The notes below the pieces were generated by a model. The model made no database searches. It worked only from the letters and a program-made list of their open reading frames with translations, and was not told where the DNA came from. The translations under genes were made by a program, and so were the position numbers. 55,027 nt of DNA from a virus, in the IMG/VR virus record IMGVR_UViG_3300030116_003984, positions 1 through 55,027 of that record; one strand, given 5' to 3'. Each line of letters starts with the position of its first letter. The first letter of the stretch is position 1. Positions 17,101-43,246 of the stretch are shown here, one piece after another.

Positions 17101-18776
17101 AAACTGTCATTACCATTGATATAATTTGGTATACCAGCCCCACAAAAGCTCACAGTGCTTGAGCTGTTTTGTCTGTTATTTCCTCCTACAATAATATCAG
17201 CTGCAGTAGCATTAGAAAAATTGTTATAAAAATCTAAAGCCATTTCAGAACCAGTCTTACCTGCATTACCTAAGCCGTTGTAAGTTTGGCTGTATTCAAT
17301 ATTATAATCAATCTTAGAAGAATAACCAACAGTGTCGTCTTGGCAATTATTACAACCATTAAACCAGCACCCAGCTGAAGTTGCTCCACTATTTTCATAA
17401 TTACCTGATGCATTAATATCAACATTCACTGTGTCCCCAAGGACATCTGAAAAGACAAATCTAATTCTATTTGTGTGTATATTCCAAGTATTAGGAATCC
17501 ACTGATTAGAGGTGCTGTACTGAATAGCTACAACAGCATTGTCTTGAAAATCAAAATCTGCGGGTAGGTCATCATCAGCAAAAACATGTCCTAATTGAAC
17601 ATCTGCTTTTTCCTTTACATCATAACCATTTGTTACATTTCCTAAAACTAATCTACCCCCATCAACTACATCTAAAGATTTTGCTTTTAAAGGAACATCA
17701 TCAAATAATTTAGCTACTTCATGTGGCGGTAAAAGTTCTACTGCTTCGTTATTGTAAAAATTATAACTGTAAGAGCTGCCTGGAGCTAAACCTTCTTTTT
17801 CTAAATCTATATCAGCAACTATAGCCCAACCTCTTTCCGAAACAAACCTTTCGCCCTCATCTTTAAGAAGTATTCTAGAAGCTATCTGAACATTTTTTAC
17901 ATCTTCAGGGCCTGTTTCAATAAGAACTGTAATCATGTTAAACTGAGAAATCATGTCTCCTGAAAAGTTTAACGAAGGGTCATAATTGTATGATTTTGAA
18001 ACTAAACTATGAGGAGAAAAAGCTGAAATTTCGTTATCATTATAAACGTATCTATAAGCAAACTGAATTACCTTTCCGTATATTTTATTGTCCTTATAAT
18101 TAGGGTCTGTCGTTGGGGCAATAATAGGCATTGAGGTGGGAGGCATTTTAATTAAATTAAAATACTCATTAAAAGAATCAAGAGTTATGTTTTGATAAAG
18201 ACCTAAAGTAGAGTCTACTCCTGAAAAAGAAAAATCTGATGTAAGAGACGTATATAAATCCCCATTCGTCCCCGATATAGATGCCGTGCCTGTTGTTAAC
18301 TTAGCACTTGCTATATTCATTTTTCTTGGCGGGTTTAAATTATCAGTCCAATATAAAATACCTTCTGGAGCAAAAGATTCTCTATGACCAATAACCTTGA
18401 TACCTGTTATAAAATGACTTGTTTGAAAGTTTAAAAAAGAAGAATTTAATAAAAGAGTTATGTTGTTTGTTTTTAAACTGTACTCATATATAGAGTGTTC
18501 AGAGTTAGCAATATCAGCAACAAAATAAATTATTCTATCCATAGGTTTATCTTGATAAGAACCTATACATTGATAGTCTAATGGATTTGCTCCTGGAGCA
18601 GCACCGTTTATTATTTGCTCAAAGCCTTTTATATTTTCTACTGAACCAACATCATCTCCTTCACTTTCAGCTGCTCTAATATTTAGCGCATCCCTATAGT
18701 CTCCTTGAGGAAGTAGTCTTTGCTCGGTGTCTTGATTTAATCCACCTAAAAAATTTTTCTTATCTATAACTGCCAT
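11187..18776 (-). CDS. Giant tail stabilisation/hub protein with inserted adhesin-like repeats (2529 aa)
   Basis: Residues 1 to about 1240 resemble the propeller-type stabilisation (tail hub) protein of Bacteroidetes podoviruses: the start NFLGGLNQDTEQRLLPQGDY, then ALNIR, ILYWTDNLNPPRKMNIA, DEGERFVSERGW, and RIHGVYDVKKEEYILSF near residue 1225. From about residue 1334 to 2145 it carries nine GCTDP...NY...DDGSC modules, two of them interrupted by extra residues, and at about 1615-1685 a SprB-like repeat (dGSF..A.GGTPPYSYEY ... AGTYVVVVTDDAGC). The last 380 residues look beta-rich. Members of this family are normally much shorter and keep their WTSFYS-type C-terminus in the same chain; here that part is a separate gene (9954-10595). 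The repeats are typical of Flavobacteriia surface proteins, so a receptor-binding or decoy role is likely but inferred. Confidence 0.75.
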   Translation of the reverse strand: MAVIDKKNFLGGLNQDTEQRLLPQGDYRDALNIRAAESEGDDVGSVENIKGFEQIINGAAPGANPLDYQCIGSYQDKPMDRIIYFVADIANSEHSIYEYSLKTNNITLLLNSSFLNFQTSHFITGIKVIGHRESFAPEGILYWTDNLNPPRKMNIASAKLTTGTASISGTNGDLYTSLTSDFSFSGVDSTLGLYQNITLDSFNEYFNLIKMPPTSMPIIAPTTDPNYKDNKIYGKVIQFAYRYVYNDNEISAFSPHSLVSKSYNYDPSLNFSGDMISQFNMITVLIETGPEDVKNVQIASRILLKDEGERFVSERGWAIVADIDLEKEGLAPGSSYSYNFYNNEAVELLPPHEVAKLFDDVPLKAKSLDVVDGGRLVLGNVTNGYDVKEKADVQLGHVFADDDLPADFDFQDNAVVAIQYSTSNQWIPNTWNIHTNRIRFVFSDVLGDTVNVDINASGNYENSGATSAGCWFNGCNNCQDDTVGYSSKIDYNIEYSQTYNGLGNAGKTGSEMALDFYNNFSNATAADIIVGGNNRQNSSSTVSFCGAGIPNYINGNDSLYFNNQGDWNGFTFTGSGDSFNDILNAIPLGNGPVNSYADWLGTTQINQPPNDFNGYVAPWTFYNNHPDCPVWIEFASSNAIDFYFVTYQMIPAGCCDSFFGPCTQTVDTEEFAITGYFDFLQGGQNSLFQTGFKSGATHNFGLVYYDKFNRSSSVMVDNDNSFDAYVPSWAERGINPGQANYPAYIDWSINHEPPEWATHYQWVYAGNDLMEEFVQCATLGIYEGKSFFPLNSHPLHGKYLVDLSELYKHELEKESPNFGWNFKKGDRIRFLLQENGSGTEVGESFTTGLSPGATLEFQILGITGQGEYKDLFKDEEFQGQAANSSDIGSFFPDSGDQLHLTEDIVNPDGTTTNVNRFKNTSRFAIIEGAWLDINVAEATTGINYGLNAQEPFAMGSYIEIFRPKVRREQEDVFYYEFGHRYDIIEDANGARAHGGEVNQLIGVGPATGRFQNGDVYLRHRGPNRDSLFATFVEDYNLSDYFDSDFWDRGRPNRIDEQYKQTERYATIYYSEPFIPNTNINGISTFNSSGLVDFPFEEYNRAYGSIQKLFAKDESLVIFQEDKVSRAVVERNILFNADGSGSLASSNKVLSSAIPYSGEYGIGFHPESFAEYAGRIYFYDLDRGAALRLSQNGLTPISNFFMKDYFGDKSQTIKKYDTNIRIHGVYDVKKEEYILSFGGIYELSPVDLCALASMGEFVYSEFVSTQQLDDDGELVFAADGEPVIITTEEPINYEIGSVVEFNGSFYTQTCIDGTEANNYDEPGVDSLCWELCTPSVGCTDPAAYNYDPLALVDDGSCEYPCANLIDASEIDAIVQNGSFFVQPETVVYSQDLGITNSVGYEAQADGSFGLNLVGNSPFYVIVLDEGQDIVFSDIDNNGVVFLDGLQSGNYTVLFIPNDIASTPDLVEGMPLFAGQTLSDLYQTLTDDGLDEAAAAVLENIYYYLYYCGSSIEVEVPLSGCTDPTSFNYVEEATIDDGGCIDEITGCSDPSALNYYCDEFPVLCAFYDANNPGWTITDDGSCEYPIPGCTDPAADNYNPLATIDDGSCTYCSSLFIPPVTVTDVTSYGGADGSFVAFASGGTPPYSYEYFASDGTTPVNNNAVTAGTYVVVVTDDAGCTESTNVFVSEPAPTFGCTDPGALNYDSTAQIDDGSCVYCPTNGFGVEFAQTPLATVGDPITVEISFISNAINSQFDNTSVTITDSFGNNHYINTTIGDFSSEPNITIPIPTGSFSALIEVTDGIYTGCQELVVFTISDFTCQSNDYQDSPQFFDNSLAQTLQEGFNTMIGWNNFSPSVNGGSKGIFNSCDGIGKFFIDFSPLTSYGAAFGNNSGSMDAAAFWQNSDIVVYNSSSYVMNSSTFTALYDPSNHNNSGLGGLASSGIITLDEEPILNNGVVDRIEVGELAVGDYIIVWNYYDNAGNLICSEAISNIEINCSGCTDDGTSPTNSPLYYPHQGTLLSAAADNYNPDANIDDGSCLYTIYGCTDPLSDTYGQNCNYITTNGASGINYSNYSFGAYNNIIDVPSITLFDDPACNGTCLYLGCTDPAASNYNANATTDDGSCYYLGCTDPAAFNYDPNATQDDGSCLYCTDPLATATLTVDVNYTPTGNEVVITVTGAGPYTINVLGATSYQFNVSLPMNGGTHTETLVNVPISPYITSIQPNAVQYEDCPAYSGDSFTVFTVGGCFEIDNIAPSSPAQSPFVITPSGSAQGLIYSENMNGTPSQDENVVGIPINFIDGTFGGIAPNNYFNGIYGLGYTLTHIELSSYVGNISVHRRVNEPPGGPPPPLSASWVYETQAGALVNNVEDLGLGGSFPNELLFDAVYGFAPATHPVTNNFTSLWVLVPSDASSNQNNPVGSIAASYTFVDAQGDTLICKLDLSFYNNLRHAYENPTANHDGLYTGSYGVIVGDYLNNETVVFDAATDVPNFNTTQNYNLVHNSIGYGAQAPENFLAFFNFTSADAQQFFNSAT
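12335..14771 (-). repeat. Nine GCTDP/DDGSC cysteine modules in the giant tail protein
   Basis: Translated on the minus strand, the segment holds nine units opening with GC(T/S)D and, in eight cases, closing with DDG(S/G)C followed by an aromatic or hydrophobic residue. Units 3, 6 and 7 have extra residues between the halves; unit 7 is the most degenerate and ends in CNGTC. The spacing between units ranges from none (the last two are back to back) to more than 200 residues. Each unit has two cysteines that could form a disulphide. Such modules are common in secreted proteins of marine Bacteroidetes. Confidence 0.85.
13718..13932 (-). repeat. SprB-like repeat domain inside the tail protein
   Basis: The roughly 70 residues encoded here run VTDVTSYGGADGSF, ASGGTPPYSYEY, AGTYVVVVTDDAGC and end VSEPAP. 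This is the signature pattern of the SprB repeat (dGs...GGtpPY.Y...aGtY.v.VtD..GC...v.EP), found many times in the gliding-motility adhesin SprB of Flavobacteriia. One copy is clear. It sits between GCTDP units 4 and 5. Confidence 0.75.
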
Positions 18777-37663: not shown

Positions 37664-39409
37664 ATGGCTAAAAAATTTAAAACCTGGAATAATAGCTCTT
37701 TTACAGTTGGCGCTCCAACAGCTCGTGGCGCTACTCCAAAAGCAGGAAGTTCGTATGCAACAAAATGGTTTGTTTGCTCTAGAACTCCCTCAAGAGCTTT
37801 AGAGTTAATATTAAAAACAGCCCTGCCTCATTATTATTTGGAGTCAGAGCAGCAAGGACAAAATTTTTCAGTTAACTCTTGGACTGAAGTTCTTCAAGAT
37901 TACTGGAGTAATATAGGTAAAGGAAAATGTCCCAGAATAAAAGACATACCTGGTTTTAAAACAGACTTAAATTTTTCTCAAGGTTTTAGTTTAACATTTC
38001 CAAACGCAACAAAACGTCATTTTAAAAATTCAGAAACTGGTAGCGGTGCTATTGTAAATTATTCTATACCTCCAAATGTTAGCGGATATGTAAATCCATC
38101 GACAGTAGATGTAGAGGTAATACCTGGAAGTTGGAATGGTAAATACTATGAATACAATGATACTATTCAGTTATCTCCTTCATGGACTTACCATGCTGCT
38201 AGGCAAACAGCACCAGTTCCAGATTATTGTTTGCCAGAGCCTGGAACAAATTTATTTAATGATGTTCATGTGTCAAAGCCTGCATTGTATAGTGATAACG
38301 GAACAGGTTATCCTTCTGTCGGTTGGAAGGGTAATTCAAATGCTAGTATGCATGAACATTTAATTAAACCGCAGTTTCAATCAGTTAGTTTCCCTTCAAA
38401 TTTATATAACTTTATAGGTTCAACTCCTTATGCAGGTGGAACAGCTTTTGGAGCTGATACCTGGAAAGCAAGCTTGCATGCTCAAACTTATTATACTGGT
38501 CAAGGAAGCTACAGATATGAAGCTAACGCAAACAACCCAGCATTATTTAGGCAGTTTGATGCCTTGAGTGGTGAAACAAATGCAACTTTAGTTGTTGATA
38601 CTAATGGAGGATTACAAGGGGGCGTCATGATAAAACATACTGCTCAATCTTTTGAACAAGCATTGATACCTACTAATTTAACCGACACTTGCAGTAATCA
38701 ACCAATCTTTAACCATAGTAATATTGTGCAATCTGCACAAAGTGCAGCTGGTAATTTGCAAGCTGCAGATGCATACCTTAGAGCTTTTGGTAAAGATGCT
38801 TTTAATATGGGATATAATACTATTGACGGAAATGAAAATGATGCATTATTTTCTATTGATGGTTTTCATGATGGAATATTTGAAGTAACTGTTCCTATAT
38901 GGTGGAATGACGGAAGTTCAGTACCTTTTATTAATAATCAGAATCTGACAATTAATGCTCAATCATCCAATCCTCTTTATGGATTTAAAAGTGGCAACAC
39001 TTTAGCAGGGGTTGGTGCAAACATCAATGCCTTAGTAGCTACTACAAATCCAAACAATGTATTGTTTGTTGAATCAACAATATTTGGCTACAATGACGGA
39101 GGCCCTTGGGGTAACTGCGGCTATCCATTTGGTAGCACGTTATTTGATAATAATACTACGAGACTTTTTACAGTAAACCCACAACCTATGGGGACTTTTA
39201 TGCAAGGCGGTGTGTTTAACCCAATGGATGAAGATTTTTTATTTGTTGCTGACAGCGCTACTGTTAACAAAGCTAAGTTAGATGATTTAGAAAATACATC
39301 TTGGTTTCCTACGCATACAGCTTGTAAAAACCTTACTCCTTGTAGAAAATGTACAGTTAACAGTCTTGGAGGAGACCGATTAGTTACTAAGCATAAGTAT
39401 ATAAGCTAA
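37664..39409 (+). CDS. Large protein of unknown function, possibly structural (581 aa)
   Basis: The sequence is Asn/Ser/Thr/Gly/Pro- and aromatic-rich without signal peptide or membrane segment, in the style of beta-rich virion proteins. It begins AKKFKTWNNSSFTVGAPTARG and ends with a small cysteine cluster (HTACKNLTPCRKCTVN). No family is recognised. It leads the operon that continues into the basic small proteins, with its stop codon overlapping the next ATG (TAATG). Confidence 0.5.
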   Translation: MAKKFKTWNNSSFTVGAPTARGATPKAGSSYATKWFVCSRTPSRALELILKTALPHYYLESEQQGQNFSVNSWTEVLQDYWSNIGKGKCPRIKDIPGFKTDLNFSQGFSLTFPNATKRHFKNSETGSGAIVNYSIPPNVSGYVNPSTVDVEVIPGSWNGKYYEYNDTIQLSPSWTYHAARQTAPVPDYCLPEPGTNLFNDVHVSKPALYSDNGTGYPSVGWKGNSNASMHEHLIKPQFQSVSFPSNLYNFIGSTPYAGGTAFGADTWKASLHAQTYYTGQGSYRYEANANNPALFRQFDALSGETNATLVVDTNGGLQGGVMIKHTAQSFEQALIPTNLTDTCSNQPIFNHSNIVQSAQSAAGNLQAADAYLRAFGKDAFNMGYNTIDGNENDALFSIDGFHDGIFEVTVPIWWNDGSSVPFINNQNLTINAQSSNPLYGFKSGNTLAGVGANINALVATTNPNNVLFVESTIFGYNDGGPWGNCGYPFGSTLFDNNTTRLFTVNPQPMGTFMQGGVFNPMDEDFLFVADSATVNKAKLDDLENTSWFPTHTACKNLTPCRKCTVNSLGGDRLVTKHKYIS

Positions 39410-39651
39410 TGCCTAAAAAAAGAGATTATAAAAAAGAATACAAAAAATTCCAAGCGTCTGATAGAGCAAAAAAAAGACGTGCGGCTTTAAATAAATATAA
39501 CCGTAAGAAAGGAACGTACGGTAATGGCGATGGACTTGACGCTTCTCATAGAGGTGGAAAGATTGTTGGTTTTGAAAAAGCTAGCAAAAATCGTGGAAGG
39601 ATTGAAAAATCTAGAAGAAAAGGTTCCAAACGTAGAACTACTAAAAAATAA
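39409..39651 (+). CDS. Basic protein, HNH-remnant-like phage family (80 aa)
   Basis: Nearly half the residues are Lys or Arg. The pattern RDYKKEYKKFQ, KKRRAALNKYNR, GDGLDASHRGG, SKNRGR is that of a widespread small phage family in which a 'GDGkDv.Hkdg ... N' centre resembles an HNH nuclease core. Here the centre is GDGLDASHRGG, so catalytic residues look incomplete. DNA or RNA binding is likely from charge. Confidence 0.6.
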   Translation: MPKKRDYKKEYKKFQASDRAKKRRAALNKYNRKKGTYGNGDGLDASHRGGKIVGFEKASKNRGRIEKSRRKGSKRRTTKK

Positions 39652-39655
39652 AATT

Positions 39656-39730
39656 ATGTACGGTAAAAAGAAAATGGGTAAGAAAAAGCCTATGAAGAAG
39701 AAAAAGAAAGTAATGAAGAAAAAGAAGTAA
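39656..39730 (+). CDS. Lys-rich micro-protein (24 aa)
   Basis: The reading frame MYGKKKMGKKKPMKKKKK... has about 16 lysines in 24 residues. I chose the ATG at 39656, which follows the upstream stop by AATT and so repeats a linker used elsewhere (TAA-AATT-ATG); a longer frame from 39524 would overlap the previous gene. It belongs to the run of basic proteins. Real translation is plausible but unproven. Confidence 0.45.
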   Translation: MYGKKKMGKKKPMKKKKKVMKKKK

Positions 39731-39732
39731 TT

Positions 39733-39930
39733 ATGGCATTTGTTAATAAAAATCTTCCTAAAAAACCAAGCTCAGGCCCTAGAATGGTAAAAGTTAGTCC
39801 TGGTGAAATGGGTCATGGTAACAGACCAAGACCAAGTAACATTATGCGTAACATTAATGTAATGCACGGGAACCAGCAAGTGTTTAATAAAAAAGTAAAT
39901 CCTGGCGGAGGGGACTGCGGTTGTGGCTAA
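39733..39930 (+). CDS. Small basic protein with Cys-Gly tail (65 aa)
   Basis: It is rich in Lys, Pro, Arg, Met and Asn, with a GGGDCGCG C-terminus. It begins two bases after the Lys-rich micro-protein and overlaps the next gene by eight bases. Function unknown; its charge and placement match the neighbouring nucleic-acid-binding candidates. Confidence 0.5.
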   Translation: MAFVNKNLPKKPSSGPRMVKVSPGEMGHGNRPRPSNIMRNINVMHGNQQVFNKKVNPGGGDCGCG

Positions 39931-40222
39931 GAAGTTAGACAAAAGCAAAATGGCATGCAATAAGCCTAGACGCTCTCCGAATCCAAAGAAGAAGAGAGTT
40001 GTCAAGGCTTGTGCTAATGGCCAGGAAAAAATTATTCACTACGGAGCTACGGGTTATGGTCACAATTACTCCGCTGCTGCACGTAAATCTTTCAAAGCAA
40101 GACACCGTTGTAGTTCTGCCAAGAATAAATTATCTGCTAGATATTGGGCTTGTAAAAATTTATGGGCTGGCTCTGGCGGTTCTAAAAAATCATCTCCGAA
40201 AGGACGTAAAGGAAAATACTAA
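39923..40222 (+). CDS. Conserved basic phage protein (99 aa)
   Basis: The signature KVVKAC-like start (KKKRVVKACANGQEKIIHYG), GYGHNYS, AARKSFKARHRCSSAKNK and LSARYWACKNLWAG is found in many marine phages. It is Lys/Arg-rich with conserved cysteines that might bind metal. Its exact function is unknown. The stop overlaps the next start as TAATG. Confidence 0.7.
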   Translation: MAKKLDKSKMACNKPRRSPNPKKKRVVKACANGQEKIIHYGATGYGHNYSAAARKSFKARHRCSSAKNKLSARYWACKNLWAGSGGSKKSSPKGRKGKY

Positions 40223-40380
40223 TGGCAAAGAAAAAGAAATCAAATAAAATCTGTCCTGCTGGTATAGCTTGGGCTAAGCGTACATTTGATAAGTATCCAA
40301 GTGCATACGCTAACTTAGCAGCTTCTAAGTACTGCAAAGACCCAAACTACGCTAAGGGTGCAAAAAGAAAGAAAAAGTAA
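40222..40380 (+). CDS. Small basic protein (52 aa)
   Basis: The frame MAKKKKSNKICPAGIAWAKR ... KYPSAYANLAASKYCKDPNY ... KRKKK is bounded by TAATG overlaps at both ends. It has two Cys residues, a central helix and Lys-rich termini; the pattern 'iCp.G..wak..f..yPSAyAn.~askyC' is known from small phage proteins. Function unknown. Confidence 0.65.
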   Translation: MAKKKKSNKICPAGIAWAKRTFDKYPSAYANLAASKYCKDPNYAKGAKRKKK

Positions 40381-40505
40381 TGGATAAAGCAAAACTAAAA
40401 AAGATTGCAGGTGAGCTAAGAAAAGCTTCTGCAATGCATAAATCACAAGCGGTGCGTATTGATAAAATGTTAAAGTCAATGACACCTAAAAAAAAGAAAA
40501 AGTAA
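40380..40505 (+). CDS. Small basic helical protein (41 aa)
   Basis: The peptide MDKAKLKKIAGELRKASAMH ... IDKMLKSMTPKKKKK forms one likely amphipathic helix followed by a poly-Lys end. TAATG overlaps join it to both neighbours, which strongly supports translation in spite of its size. Confidence 0.6.
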   Translation: MDKAKLKKIAGELRKASAMHKSQAVRIDKMLKSMTPKKKKK

Positions 40506-40633
40506 TGGCTAAAAAAATGACACCAGCTCAAAAGCGTATTGCAAAAGCAGCACCACCATTTAACAAGATTACAGCTGCAGACTTTAGAGCACTAAAGAGA
40601 AACGGTGGTAAAAAGAAAAAAGGTAGAAAGTAA
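40505..40633 (+). CDS. Small basic protein (42 aa)
   Basis: The peptide MAKKMTPAQKRIAKAAPPFN ... FRALKRNGGKKKKGRK resembles the common short phage form 'tpaqkki.kaap.~nkIt..Dfk.Lr'. It is bounded by TAATG overlaps. Nucleic-acid binding is inferred from charge. Confidence 0.6.
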   Translation: MAKKMTPAQKRIAKAAPPFNKITAADFRALKRNGGKKKKGRK

Positions 40634-40878
40634 TGGGTGAATTAAAGAAATGGCTTAAACAAAAGTGGGTTCGTATAGGTACTGATGGCTCAATCAAGGG
40701 TGAATGCGGTACAAGTAAGAATAAAAAAAATCCAGACAGATGTTTGCCATTATCCAAGGCTAGAAGCCTATCAAAAGCAGAACGAGCTAAGACTGCTAGA
40801 AAAAAGAAAGCTGCAGGTAGCAAAGGAAAACAGTTTGTTGCCAATACAAAAAAAGCTAAAGTGCGTTCAAAGAAATAA
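40633..40878 (+). CDS. DUF5872-like basic phage protein (81 aa)
   Basis: The opening MGELKKWLKQKWVRIGTDGS, the central GECGTSKNKKNPDRCLPLSKA and the Lys/Ala C-terminus match a small protein family widespread in marine viruses (I recall it as DUF5872). Two cysteines flank the NPDRC motif. It ends the basic-protein operon, just before the inverted-repeat array. Confidence 0.7.
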   Translation: MGELKKWLKQKWVRIGTDGSIKGECGTSKNKKNPDRCLPLSKARSLSKAERAKTARKKKAAGSKGKQFVANTKKAKVRSKK

Positions 40879-40893
40879 TAAGCGTAACCACGC

Positions 40894-40952
40894 TACACTT
40901 GTAGTGTAACCACATTACACTTGTAGTGTACTCTCATTACACTTATATTGCA
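40894..40952. repeat. Three inverted repeats spaced by 22 bp
   Basis: TACACT-TGT-AGTGTA occurs at 40894-40908 and again at 40916-40930, with a decayed third copy at 40938-40952 (TACACTTATATTGCA). The period is exactly 22 bp, about two helical turns, placing all copies on one face of the DNA. The first copies are also preceded by TAACCACG/TAACCACA, so the unit is longer than the palindrome. This arrangement fits an operator array or origin iterons. Confidence 0.75.
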
Positions 40953-41049
40953 CTACTTCAAGGTTAATACACTTACCCCCAGTGTGTTAGCCTTTTTTAA
41001 TGCCTATATATACCTTTATAATGTTTAGTGTCTTGCTAGTATATATGAC

Positions 41050-41830
41050 GCACATATGTTTGGGGTGGGGGTTTATGCATGCGTACGTACACTTACATTG
41101 CAATACCCAAACCGAATATCCCAACGGGGTGGGGTCTTATCTAGTCAGCGCTAGTTATCTTTCTCTAGTGGGAACTCGTGCGCTCCGTGGCCACCCCCTA
41201 GCGCCCTCGGTGGCTCTATCTAGTGGCCTCTAGTGGCTTATCTGTCGCCCTCGATAGGTTTCTAGTGGTTGGCGCAAGTGTTTTTATGTGCGCTAACCCC
41301 TACGCCCTATCTAGTATATTACAGAGTTTAACCTAGACAGCCCCCTAAAATTGTTTTGTGTACCCCCCTTTCTTCTCTAGTAATTTGGTGATTACGATTT
41401 GTTTTTGTGTGTTTGAGGTGTCGACAGCAAACGAGCAACAGACACGAGGCAAACGCCTCACCCACATATTGCGATACAGGTGTAACACGAGAGTGCAACA
41501 CATATGAGTTCAAGCGGTTGCAATACCGCCTAATACCCTCGGAGCATCTAGTAAGCAAGTTTGATTCACAAGCGTAACCATTGGGGGCGGTACGAGGGTT
41601 GGAAACCTCGGCTAAATTCTGGTAAGAGCAAGAATACCTTTGATTTCTGATAGCTTTAAGGTATAGGTGTAAGCTATCCCTACCGACAACACGGGAGGAC
41701 ACTCTTTCGAGGGAGTGTGTAATATGTGTTCTAGGTGGACTAGAACGACTACGAGTAATTCATTCGTGCTAGAGACCATTATGGTTGACGTATCTAGCTA
41801 CTCGAGGGGAGCAATACCCCTGTCCACTAC
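41050..41830 (+). ncRNA. Candidate large structured noncoding RNA
   Basis: About 970 bp (40879-41851) hold no plausible gene, are clearly more GC-rich than the surroundings, and contain many exact complementary pairs. Examples: 41058-41064/41106-41112 (7 bp); 41267-41276/41289-41298 (10 bp) enclosed by 41253-41258/41306-41311; 41446-41450/41455-41459; 41514-41518/41525-41529; 41699-41704/41713-41718; 41728-41734/41740-41746 (7 bp); 41751-41756/41762-41767; 41805-41809/41817-41821. ATACCTT (41634-41640) with AAGGTAT (41658-41664) crosses GATAGCTT (41649-41656) with AAGCTATC (41671-41678), an H-type pseudoknot. The strand is inferred from flanking plus-strand genes. It does not match tmRNA, RNase P or a group I core that I can recognise; large phage RNAs such as GOLLD or ROOL are comparable in size only. 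The 5' boundary is uncertain. Confidence 0.65.
41164..41268 (+). repeat. Four copies of TCTAGTGG
   Basis: The octamer starts at 41164, 41219, 41229 and 41261, within a 210-bp stretch that has nine CTAG tetramers in total. CTAG is usually rare in bacterial and phage DNA. The copies lie inside the candidate structured RNA and could be RNA structural elements or protein-binding sites. Confidence 0.7.
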
Positions 41831-41851
41831 TAACTTAAATTTATTTCAATC

Positions 41852-42064
41852 ATGACAAATCAAGTATTATCATTCGACTTAGACCTAGTAAACGAGGCAG
41901 TTCAACTAGGTGTGAACAAGAGAATAATCAACAACTACCGAGTAAACCCTGAGTTCCAAGAGGCTATGGAGCTAGAGGAGGCTATCGAGGAGCAAAGATA
42001 CTCCCTAGCGTATGCTTACAGCATCTCTAGGTTTGCCGTAGAGAAGACAGAGGTGTCTTGCTAG
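41852..42064 (+). CDS. Small protein of unknown function (70 aa)
   Basis: A helical, acidic protein: MTNQVLSFDLDLVNEAVQLG, later EFQEAMELEEAIEEQRYSLA. No family recognised. It is the only gene between the candidate structured RNA and the hammerhead ribozyme: its TAG stop at 42062-42064 is followed at once by the first ribozyme base. A leader of AAATTTATTTCAATC precedes the ATG. Confidence 0.55.
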   Translation: MTNQVLSFDLDLVNEAVQLGVNKRIINNYRVNPEFQEAMELEEAIEEQRYSLAYAYSISRFAVEKTEVSC

Positions 42065-42173
42065 AGTTACACTGATGAGGCCTCAAAGGTCGAAACACTA
42101 GAGAATATCAATAGGCGACCTAGCCGAAGCTACTCGACTAAAGTGATGAGATATTACTCTAGTGTCTGTAACT
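42065..42173 (+). ncRNA. Type I hammerhead ribozyme
   Basis: All parts are present. Stem I: 42065-42071 with 42167-42173 (7 bp, perfect). CUGAUGA core: 42072-42078. Stem II: 42079-42082 with 42088-42091, loop UCAAA. GAAA core: 42092-42095. Stem III: A42095-U42165 and 42096-42103 with 42157-42164 (9 bp), extended after one bulged A by 42104-42109 with 42150-42155 (6 bp); the remaining loop contains a TAGC-CGAA-GCTA hairpin (42121-42132). The cleavage triplet is GUC, with the cut after C42166. Because the RNA enters and leaves through stem I it is type I. Cleavage would leave a 5'-OH at 42167, 25 nt upstream of the ATG at 42192, separating the transcript of the 70-residue gene from the next gene. 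Confidence 0.94.
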
Positions 42174-42191
42174 AACAAAATTTATATCACT

Positions 42192-42509
42192 ATGGATTAC
42201 GCATTCTCAACAATTTCAACACTCAAGCACCTAGAAGGGATGTTTTGGGAGGACTGCAAAATAAATTTAGATACTTTTGGGTTTATTACATCTAGACATA
42301 GGGGAGAGTTAATTGAACTCCACTGGCATAGCGCAGGTAAACAAAAGTCCTTTTCAGATTTAATCAAGAGTATCGAGAACCTTCGTGTACTTTCTTACAT
42401 CAAGGAACTAAACTGCGTATGGAAAGCCGAACAAGGATGGTTTGATATAAGCATAAAGGTAGAGATTGAGGAAGGATACACCTATGATGTTTCAATTACA
42501 TTACACTAG
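42192..42509 (+). CDS. Small protein of unknown function downstream of the ribozyme (105 aa)
   Basis: The ATG at 42192 (MDYAFSTISTLKHLEGMFWE) is preferred over an in-frame GTG at 42162, which lies inside ribozyme stem III. The protein is alpha/beta with a LIELHWHSAGKQKSF strand and a C-terminal VEIEEGYTYDVSITLH; no family recognised. Its mRNA would begin with the 25-nt 3' product of hammerhead cleavage. Confidence 0.6.
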   Translation: MDYAFSTISTLKHLEGMFWEDCKINLDTFGFITSRHRGELIELHWHSAGKQKSFSDLIKSIENLRVLSYIKELNCVWKAEQGWFDISIKVEIEEGYTYDVSITLH

Positions 42510-42513
42510 AACT

Positions 42514-42843
42514 ATGAAGAAGATAATCCTAGGAGTATTGAGCGTAGCTTTGCTATGCTCTTGCTCCAAAGATGAGTATGAGGTTTCTCCTACTTATCTA
42601 GAACAACAGCTATCTGTCGAAGGCGACTACATTACATACTATGTAATCAACGCTAAAGATATGGTAAGCGAAACCCTAGTGGCTACATACGAAGGTGTCG
42701 AGTACACTACTGATGATATGCCTAGGAATAACGGAGAGATATTTATCTTTCCCATAACATACCCTAACCTAGCAGTAACGCTAGATAGTAACATACCAAA
42801 AGAACAAATAACATTTACCCTAGGTGGTAAACAAATTAACTAG
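42514..42843 (+). CDS. Phage-encoded lipoprotein (109 aa)
   Basis: From the ATG at 42514 the protein starts with a lipoprotein signal peptide, MKKIILGVLSVALLCSC, with a lipobox L-C-S-C and lipidated Cys17, followed by SKDEYE, an acidic stretch of the kind that can direct Bacteroidetes lipoproteins to the outer surface. The rest is beta-rich (residues 30-109). A longer frame from 42466 would add an unlikely N-terminus and overlap the previous gene. Early phage lipoproteins in other phages often block superinfection by masking receptors; that is possible but not shown here. Confidence 0.7.
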   Translation: MKKIILGVLSVALLCSCSKDEYEVSPTYLEQQLSVEGDYITYYVINAKDMVSETLVATYEGVEYTTDDMPRNNGEIFIFPITYPNLAVTLDSNIPKEQITFTLGGKQIN

Positions 42844-42845
42844 AT

Positions 42846-43166
42846 ATGATAAGATATGAACTTTACTTTGCCTTAGGTGGCAAACACACGGACAATGCAG
42901 AACAAGTAAACTTGGAGAAGGTACTAGAATTAGTATGCGATACCTTTGGTGGCTATTCACTACAAAAGATACAAGGTGGGTGGAAACATTATACGGGTAA
43001 CGCTTGGGTAATGTTAGAAGAAGATAGCTACCGACTAACAATCTTTACATATAGTGTAAAACCAGATAAGCATAAGCTATCCCTATTATGCGACTACATC
43101 AAAACAAACTTTCAACAAGAGGAGGTTATGTACACTGAAGAAGAAGTAAAGGTAGTAAGGATATGA
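42846..43166 (+). CDS. Small alpha/beta protein of unknown function (106 aa)
   Basis: It begins MIRYELYFALGGKHTDNAEQ and contains LEKVLELVCDTFGGYSLQKI and a GGWKHYTG turn, a ferredoxin-like pattern somewhat like DUF3574 proteins. That resemblance is weak. Its TGA overlaps the next ATG (ATGA). Confidence 0.5.
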   Translation: MIRYELYFALGGKHTDNAEQVNLEKVLELVCDTFGGYSLQKIQGGWKHYTGNAWVMLEEDSYRLTIFTYSVKPDKHKLSLLCDYIKTNFQQEEVMYTEEEVKVVRI

Positions 43167-43246
43167 CACCGATAGACCTAGCAGTTTACCTAACGATATA
43201 CTACTTTGTAGTATTTTTGCTAAGATATATTAAACAAGAAAAATAA
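43163..43246 (+). CDS. Single-span membrane micro-protein (27 aa)
   Basis: The frame encodes MTPIDLAVYLTIYYFVVFLL followed by RYIKQEK: one hydrophobic segment with a positive cytoplasmic end. It starts by an ATGA overlap with the upstream gene and ends in the TAA-AATT-ATG linker, which supports translation. It may modulate a host membrane protein; function unknown. Confidence 0.5.
   Translation: MTPIDLAVYLTIYYFVVFLLRYIKQEK

Follow-up and report, generated by a model that had tools for sequence, protein, structure and literature searches.

An intergenic type I hammerhead ribozyme of a phage and its relatives in viral contigs

Introduction

A complete type I hammerhead ribozyme lies exactly between two co-directional phage genes in the virus record IMGVR_UViG_3300030116_003984, the 55,027 nucleotides of which were analysed here and are referred to as the window. 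Relatives of this ribozyme were gathered by pattern scans of viral contigs, and the assembled set comprises 232 distinct type I and 31 type III hammerheads (263 copies), nearly all of them in viral contigs; the sampling of stem I and loop II sequences is biased by the patterns used. The reading that we favor, with a probability of about three in four, is that constitutive self-cleavage by such ribozymes cuts polycistronic phage mRNA into gene-length units. As hundreds of relatives are found at equivalent positions in other phages, these viruses probably split multi-gene messages by RNA self-cutting.

The role of prokaryotic and phage hammerheads was listed as an open question in a 2017 review (PMC6155905). 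The window copy is of a known kind. The present analysis adds a large and regular set, part of which Rfam does not see, and cultured phages that carry members of it. The regular layout in 263 copies, the two topologies, and the cultured carriers make the processing hypothesis directly testable.

Structure of the window ribozyme

The three sequence elements of the type I core, CUGAUGA, GAAA, and the GUC cleavage triplet, are all present (Table 1). Both the fold and the full-length match of an independent covariance model have three helices meeting at the core with stem I open-ended, and the minimum free energy fold of the ribozyme sequence is the hammerhead itself (z = -3.63 relative to shuffled sequences). 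The earlier note on this DNA had reported a complete type I hammerhead at this site, which is borne out by the sequence, the fold, the independent model, and a replacement of stem III in a relative (below). The stem lengths it gave (7 bp, 4 bp, and 9 + 6 bp with one bulge) are correct; its description of full complementarity is not, as one of the four pairs in stem II is a G·U wobble. One further U-A pair is possible in this stem (4-5 bp). The note's reading of the boundaries, with the ribozyme starting at the base after the stop codon of the 70-aa gene and the cut falling 25 nt before the next ATG, agrees with the sequence.

Table 1. Features of the hammerhead ribozyme and the flanking genes in the window.
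Feature	Positions	Strand	Description and basis
Upstream gene	41852-42064	+	70 aa; TAG at 42062-42064 adjoins the ribozyme; ORF list
Type I hammerhead ribozyme	42065-42173	+	Sequence, fold, independent covariance model
Stem I 5' arm, AGUUACA	42065-42071	+	Pairs with UGUAACU 42167-42173 (7 bp); stem I covariation in relatives
Catalytic core CUGAUGA	42072-42078	+	Sequence
Stem II	42079-42091	+	GGCC 42079-42082 with GGUC 42088-42091, loop UCAAA; sequence
Core GAA (42092-42094) and A15.1	42092-42095	+	Sequence; invariant in relatives
Stem III	42095-42165	+	9 bp (42095-42103 with 42157-42165, A15.1 starting the helix) and 6 bp (42104-42109 with 42150-42155) beyond bulged A42156; apical loop 42110-42149, 40 nt; sequence and fold
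C17, predicted cut 3' of this base	42166	+	GUC triplet 42164-42166
Predicted leader on downstream mRNA	42167-42191	+	25 nt, opening with the 7 nt of the stem I 3' arm
Downstream gene	42192-42509	+	105 aa; ATG at 42192

The apical loop of stem III is not conserved. Stem I is short (6-7 bp) and opens into unpaired flanks, which counts against the favored reading. In the relatives the A at the third position of loop II is nearly invariant and the A just before stem I is also conserved, which is compatible with a contact between loop I and loop II. Such tertiary contacts, which fast cleavage requires, are putative.

Hammerhead cleavage leaves a 2',3'-cyclic phosphate and a 5'-OH. In the proposed mechanism RNA polymerase would read through the 70-aa and 105-aa genes, and once the 3' arm of stem I had been transcribed the hammerhead would fold and cut after C42166, co-transcriptionally. 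The upstream mRNA would then end in stems II and III plus the cyclic phosphate and could resist 3' exonucleases, and the downstream mRNA would carry a 5'-OH and the 25-nt leader with its ribosome-binding region intact. General RNA biology suggests that the products would be protected from exonucleases and from 5'-phosphate-dependent decay. The observed sequence, structure, covariation, and placement thus lead us to predict transcription through the site, cleavage, altered stability or translation of the products, and a benefit to the phage. The earlier note's expectation that cleavage would separate the two transcripts fits the position of the ribozyme between stop codon and ATG.

Detection by covariance models

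The earlier note had named the Rfam covariance model as a check, with the lack of a match above threshold counting against the ribozyme, and at the gathering threshold no Rfam match was obtained in the window. The Rfam type I model is insensitive to these copies, since only one type I copy across the ten loci scanned reached the threshold, and the gathering threshold is a curated detection cut-off rather than a defining property of type I hammerheads. With almost every scanned type I copy falling below the Rfam thresholds, phage genomes are under-annotated for such ribozymes. A sub-threshold match to Hammerhead_3 (24.2 bits) was rejected because it has the wrong topology and its stems do not fit the window sequence.

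A covariance model of our own, built from 33 relatives with the window sequence excluded, gives a score of 53.8 bits (E about 7e-14) to the window copy, the next best match in the window being at 16 bits. This second candidate, at positions 17937-17973, lacks most of the core and was discarded, and a search with filters off revealed no convincing second hammerhead in the window. The pattern scanner used to gather the relatives returned zero matches in 3.0 Mb of first-order shuffled sequence.

That the window copy is a chance or decayed look-alike without activity is extremely improbable. The sub-threshold Rfam scores would fit such a look-alike, as would the finding that 4 of 18 consensus-matching hammerheads were inactive in vitro (PMC3088659), but the score from a model that had not seen the copy, the empty shuffled sequence, and the full compensatory replacement of stem III in a syntenic relative all speak against it. 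This close relative (L001) was found through the 70-aa protein, at 93% protein identity. It shares with the window the upstream gene and the 5' portion of the ribozyme, and the alignment continues up to GAAAC and then diverges; stem III and its loop are wholly different from those of the window, yet they pair as a 9-bp helix.

Base-pair covariation in the relatives

In an alignment of 50 relatives, which were chosen partly for pairing, 15 pairs are 100% paired and 12 of the 15 have changed on both sides, a result as high being reached by none of 500 shuffles. Every column of the core is invariant except U7. Because this set was chosen partly for pairing, two further searches were made in which the tested pairing was not a criterion. 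In the first, only the 5' half was fixed. TGTAAC was found downstream in 24 of 25 copies with GTTACA, a count that is not fully independent because some of the loci had entered through an earlier TGTAAC pattern. For copies with GTTATA the expected TATAAC was found downstream in 24 of 26; one more carries TGTAAC, which pairs through a G·U, and one is lost at a contig end.

In the second search only the core and loop II were fixed. Among the matches listed, 105 of 109 distinct matches are complete type I hammerheads, and these contain 48 different stem I pairs, the true number being larger. The remaining four we also regard as hammerheads, each with a defective stem III. Changes of this kind are also seen within a single genus: at an intergenic hammerhead of two Flavobacterium phages, stem II is GACU/AGUC in elemoA and GGUU/AACC in elemoB, with both sides of the changed pairs replaced.

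Position of the hammerheads relative to genes

Placement was determined with a simple ORF heuristic and not from gene predictions, and the counts are descriptive only because related phages are not independent. The layout of stop codon, ribozyme, about 20 nt, and ATG recurs in most of the 232 type I copies. For type I the median distance is 0 nt from the upstream stop codon to the ribozyme, 20 nt from the ribozyme 3' end to the ATG, and 25-26 nt from the cut to the ATG. The type III copies lie about 35 nt after the stop codon, with a median of 22 nt from the 3' end to the ATG and the cut about 68 nt before the ATG. The 3' end falls 12-30 nt from an ATG in 68% of type I and 81% of type III copies versus 9.5% of random positions, and for ordinary gaps between co-directional genes of these loci the median is 6 nt. 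Copies in Pelagibacter phages (L115, L252, and L254) lie in wider gaps, and no gene start is annotated where the common spacing would place it, which counts against a processing role.

The two types share the distance to the ATG and differ in the position of the cut, so the common feature is an intergenic cut that leaves the ribosome-binding region free, and not a particular 5' end. The earlier note had proposed that cleavage sets a defined 5' end; a 25-nt leader with a 5'-OH is indeed predicted for the window, but a fixed end is not a shared feature, given the more distant cut of type III. The note had also called the intercistronic position unusual. It is typical, as the recurrence of the layout shows and as such processing was already proposed in 2011 (PMC3088659). 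Another point that counts against a processing role is that the close fit to the stop codon may be no more than a sign of a compact genome.

The same spacing raises the question of regulation. An active ribozyme might work as a switch, in which translation of the upstream gene, or a ligand of the stem III loop, decides on cleavage and thereby controls expression. In most copies a stop codon lies within a few nt of stem I, so that stem I and some of the core would be covered by a ribosome terminating there, and some copies have long stem III loops, with spans of 71 in the window and 124 in L015. We nevertheless consider a switch unlikely, because the stem III loop is not conserved, as the window and L001 show, in many copies this loop has 4 nt and is too small for a sensor, and the type III copies are well removed from the stop codon.

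Arrays of hammerheads

Hammerheads occur on one strand only at every locus. At least two copies are present in 61 of 166 locus-strands; the contigs are fragments, so copies per genome are lower bounds. A 2.4-kb locus (L025) has the order type III, gene pair, type I, gene, type I, gene pair, type I, gene, type I, gene. Type III copies share arrays with type I in this and other loci (L023, L044, L053, L062, L113, and others), and type III comes first in 13 of 16 mixed arrays. Under constitutive cleavage, hammerheads placed between genes, often several per operon and sometimes of both types, would give each gene or small block an mRNA of its own. The window has a single hammerhead rather than several per operon, none was found at any of its other co-directional gene pairs, and many co-directional gene pairs in operons with hammerheads are likewise without one, which also counts against the favored reading.

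For loci found without constraining stem I, the stem I arms are interchangeable in 58% of within-genome pairs versus 10% of pairs between genomes. Stem II, in contrast, is not shared within genomes, a difference that is weakened by the search pattern, which partly fixed stem II. In multi-copy loci such as L178, L209, L145, and L170, stem I tends to be shared or cross-compatible within a phage and stems II and III differ. The compatibility of stem I could be due to shared descent, or to selection that favors copies able to exchange or ligate with one another.

In one rival reading the ribozyme would be a cassette or recombination junction, with its conserved core as a short stretch of homology between gene modules and with cleavage secondary to module exchange or selfish spread. 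The break in the window/L001 alignment after GAAAC, the extra small gene downstream in L001, and the higher compatibility of stem I within than between genomes point in this direction. Homology alone does not demand that the pairing of all three stems be kept through base changes, nor that type I and type III share their distance to the ATG, and a junction of this kind is accordingly rather improbable as the main explanation.

In another, the excised gene-length RNAs would close into circles, by reverse ligation or through an RtcB-type ligase, as in retrozymes. Many genomes do contain gene units with a type I copy on either side and stem I arms that are compatible between the two, RtcB accepts ends of the kind that cleavage leaves (5'-OH and 2',3'-cyclic phosphate), and an RtcB annotation exists in phage phi38:1. 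The window has one hammerhead and no RtcB and hence no excised unit, the 40 kb of phi38:1 that were scanned are without a hammerhead, and spliced or circular products of tandem arrays were sought and not detected in an earlier study (PMC3088659). Circle formation is thus highly improbable. Equally doubtful is the more specific proposal that, in phages with several type I copies, the compatible stem I arms let the excised RNA rebuild a hammerhead from its own ends and ligate itself into circular or spliced mRNAs, with the single-copy window as a remnant or simpler form. Constitutive cleavage into separate mRNAs is the reading retained here.

Comparison with known systems

A 2011 study by Perreault et al. 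described clustered phage hammerheads and proposed transcript processing as their role (PMC3088659). That paper reports that tandem phage-type hammerheads cleave in vitro and in E. coli, and that the 5' end of a halovirus transcript maps within 3 nt of the hammerhead cut (PMC3088659). In the clustered prophage hammerheads of that study, as here, several types flank single genes or short blocks. The present set comes mainly from aquatic tailed phages, type I predominates in it, accompanied by one or more type III copies, and the layout from stop codon to ATG is measured over 263 copies. The two sets also have an ardA neighborhood in common, which is found here at Pelagibacter phage Jormungand: two ArdA anti-restriction genes (L254:317-1184) lie about 1.3 kb upstream of its hammerhead, recalling the published association.

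With Hammerhead_1 (RF00163) the window copy shares the three stems, the CUGANGA and GAAA elements, the GUC cut triplet, an open stem I, and closed stems II and III; it differs in falling below the Rfam gathering threshold, in its long and variable stem III, and in its short stem I that leads into the flanks. The HHphage ribozymes of haloviruses HF1 and HF2 (PMC3088659) are likewise located just before a start codon, among genes presumed to be early, but they are variant hammerheads of archaeal viruses, 13 nt from the start codon of the transcript's first gene. The copies in Streptomyces phage R4 are also interspersed with small phage genes and differ in having the pseudoknot-prone type II topology (RF02276), which Rfam detects. 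The HDV-like theta ribozymes of gut phages (PMC10879173) are also phage self-cleaving ribozymes for RNA processing; they have an unrelated fold and a proposed role at the tRNA 3'-trailer, not in mRNA. A circular RNA element of the retrozyme type requires two flanking hammerheads, whereas the window record has a single copy. Nothing was found on hammerheads in crAss-like phages in open-licence papers, and published descriptions may be missed by this search.

Neighboring genes and carriers

No Pfam family was assigned to the 70-aa or the 105-aa protein; the two genes, which the earlier note called early, may be early genes. Homologues of the 105-aa protein are encoded directly downstream of the L003 hammerhead and, in L001, one gene further on; a search for relatives of this protein by itself in viral contigs confirmed none. 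No DNA similarity to cultured phages was found across positions 40900-43200, and the capsid protein of the window is 28-31% identical to capsids of Maribacter, Cellulophaga, and Flavobacterium phages. Scans for Bacteroidota-type and sigma-70-like promoters near the ribozyme gave no excess over shuffled sequence.

Between a terminator-like hairpin (40960-40994) and the 70-aa gene there are about 860 nt without a convincing gene (40995-41851). This region has no Rfam match, and parts of it match L001 at 85-89% DNA identity; these aligned parts suggest that a promoter and a structured leader RNA may be located here. Further upstream on the + strand, about seven short ORFs (41-99 aa), all very rich in lysine, follow one another at 39409-40878.

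Several carriers are cultured phages. ElemoA and elemoB (Elemovirus, Flavobacterium sp. BAL314) each have one type III and one type I hammerhead, which in elemoA lie upstream of gene 49 and between genes 44 and 42, respectively, and others occur in Methylophilales phage MEP301 and in Pelagibacter phages HTVC131P, HTVC019P, and Jormungand. No hammerheads were found in the first 40 kb of phi38:1 and of Panino or in 36 kb of MW202828. The sole pattern match in the bacterial and archaeal genome collection is in a Verrucomicrobia MAG contig (TMED44; L113) with four hammerheads and phage-like genes, which is probably a phage contig within the bin.

Some annotations in cultured phages overlap with hammerheads. 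In elemoA an antisense 'hypothetical protein' overlaps the type I hammerhead (L114:5961-6068) and is probably spurious. Streptomyces phage R4 (L117) has six type II copies in 5 kb, and at two of them (L117:2113-2173 and 2796-2856) the annotated starts of gp79 and gp77 are the AUG within the core CUGAUGA. Since this AUG belongs to the hammerhead core, both starts are probably mis-annotated.
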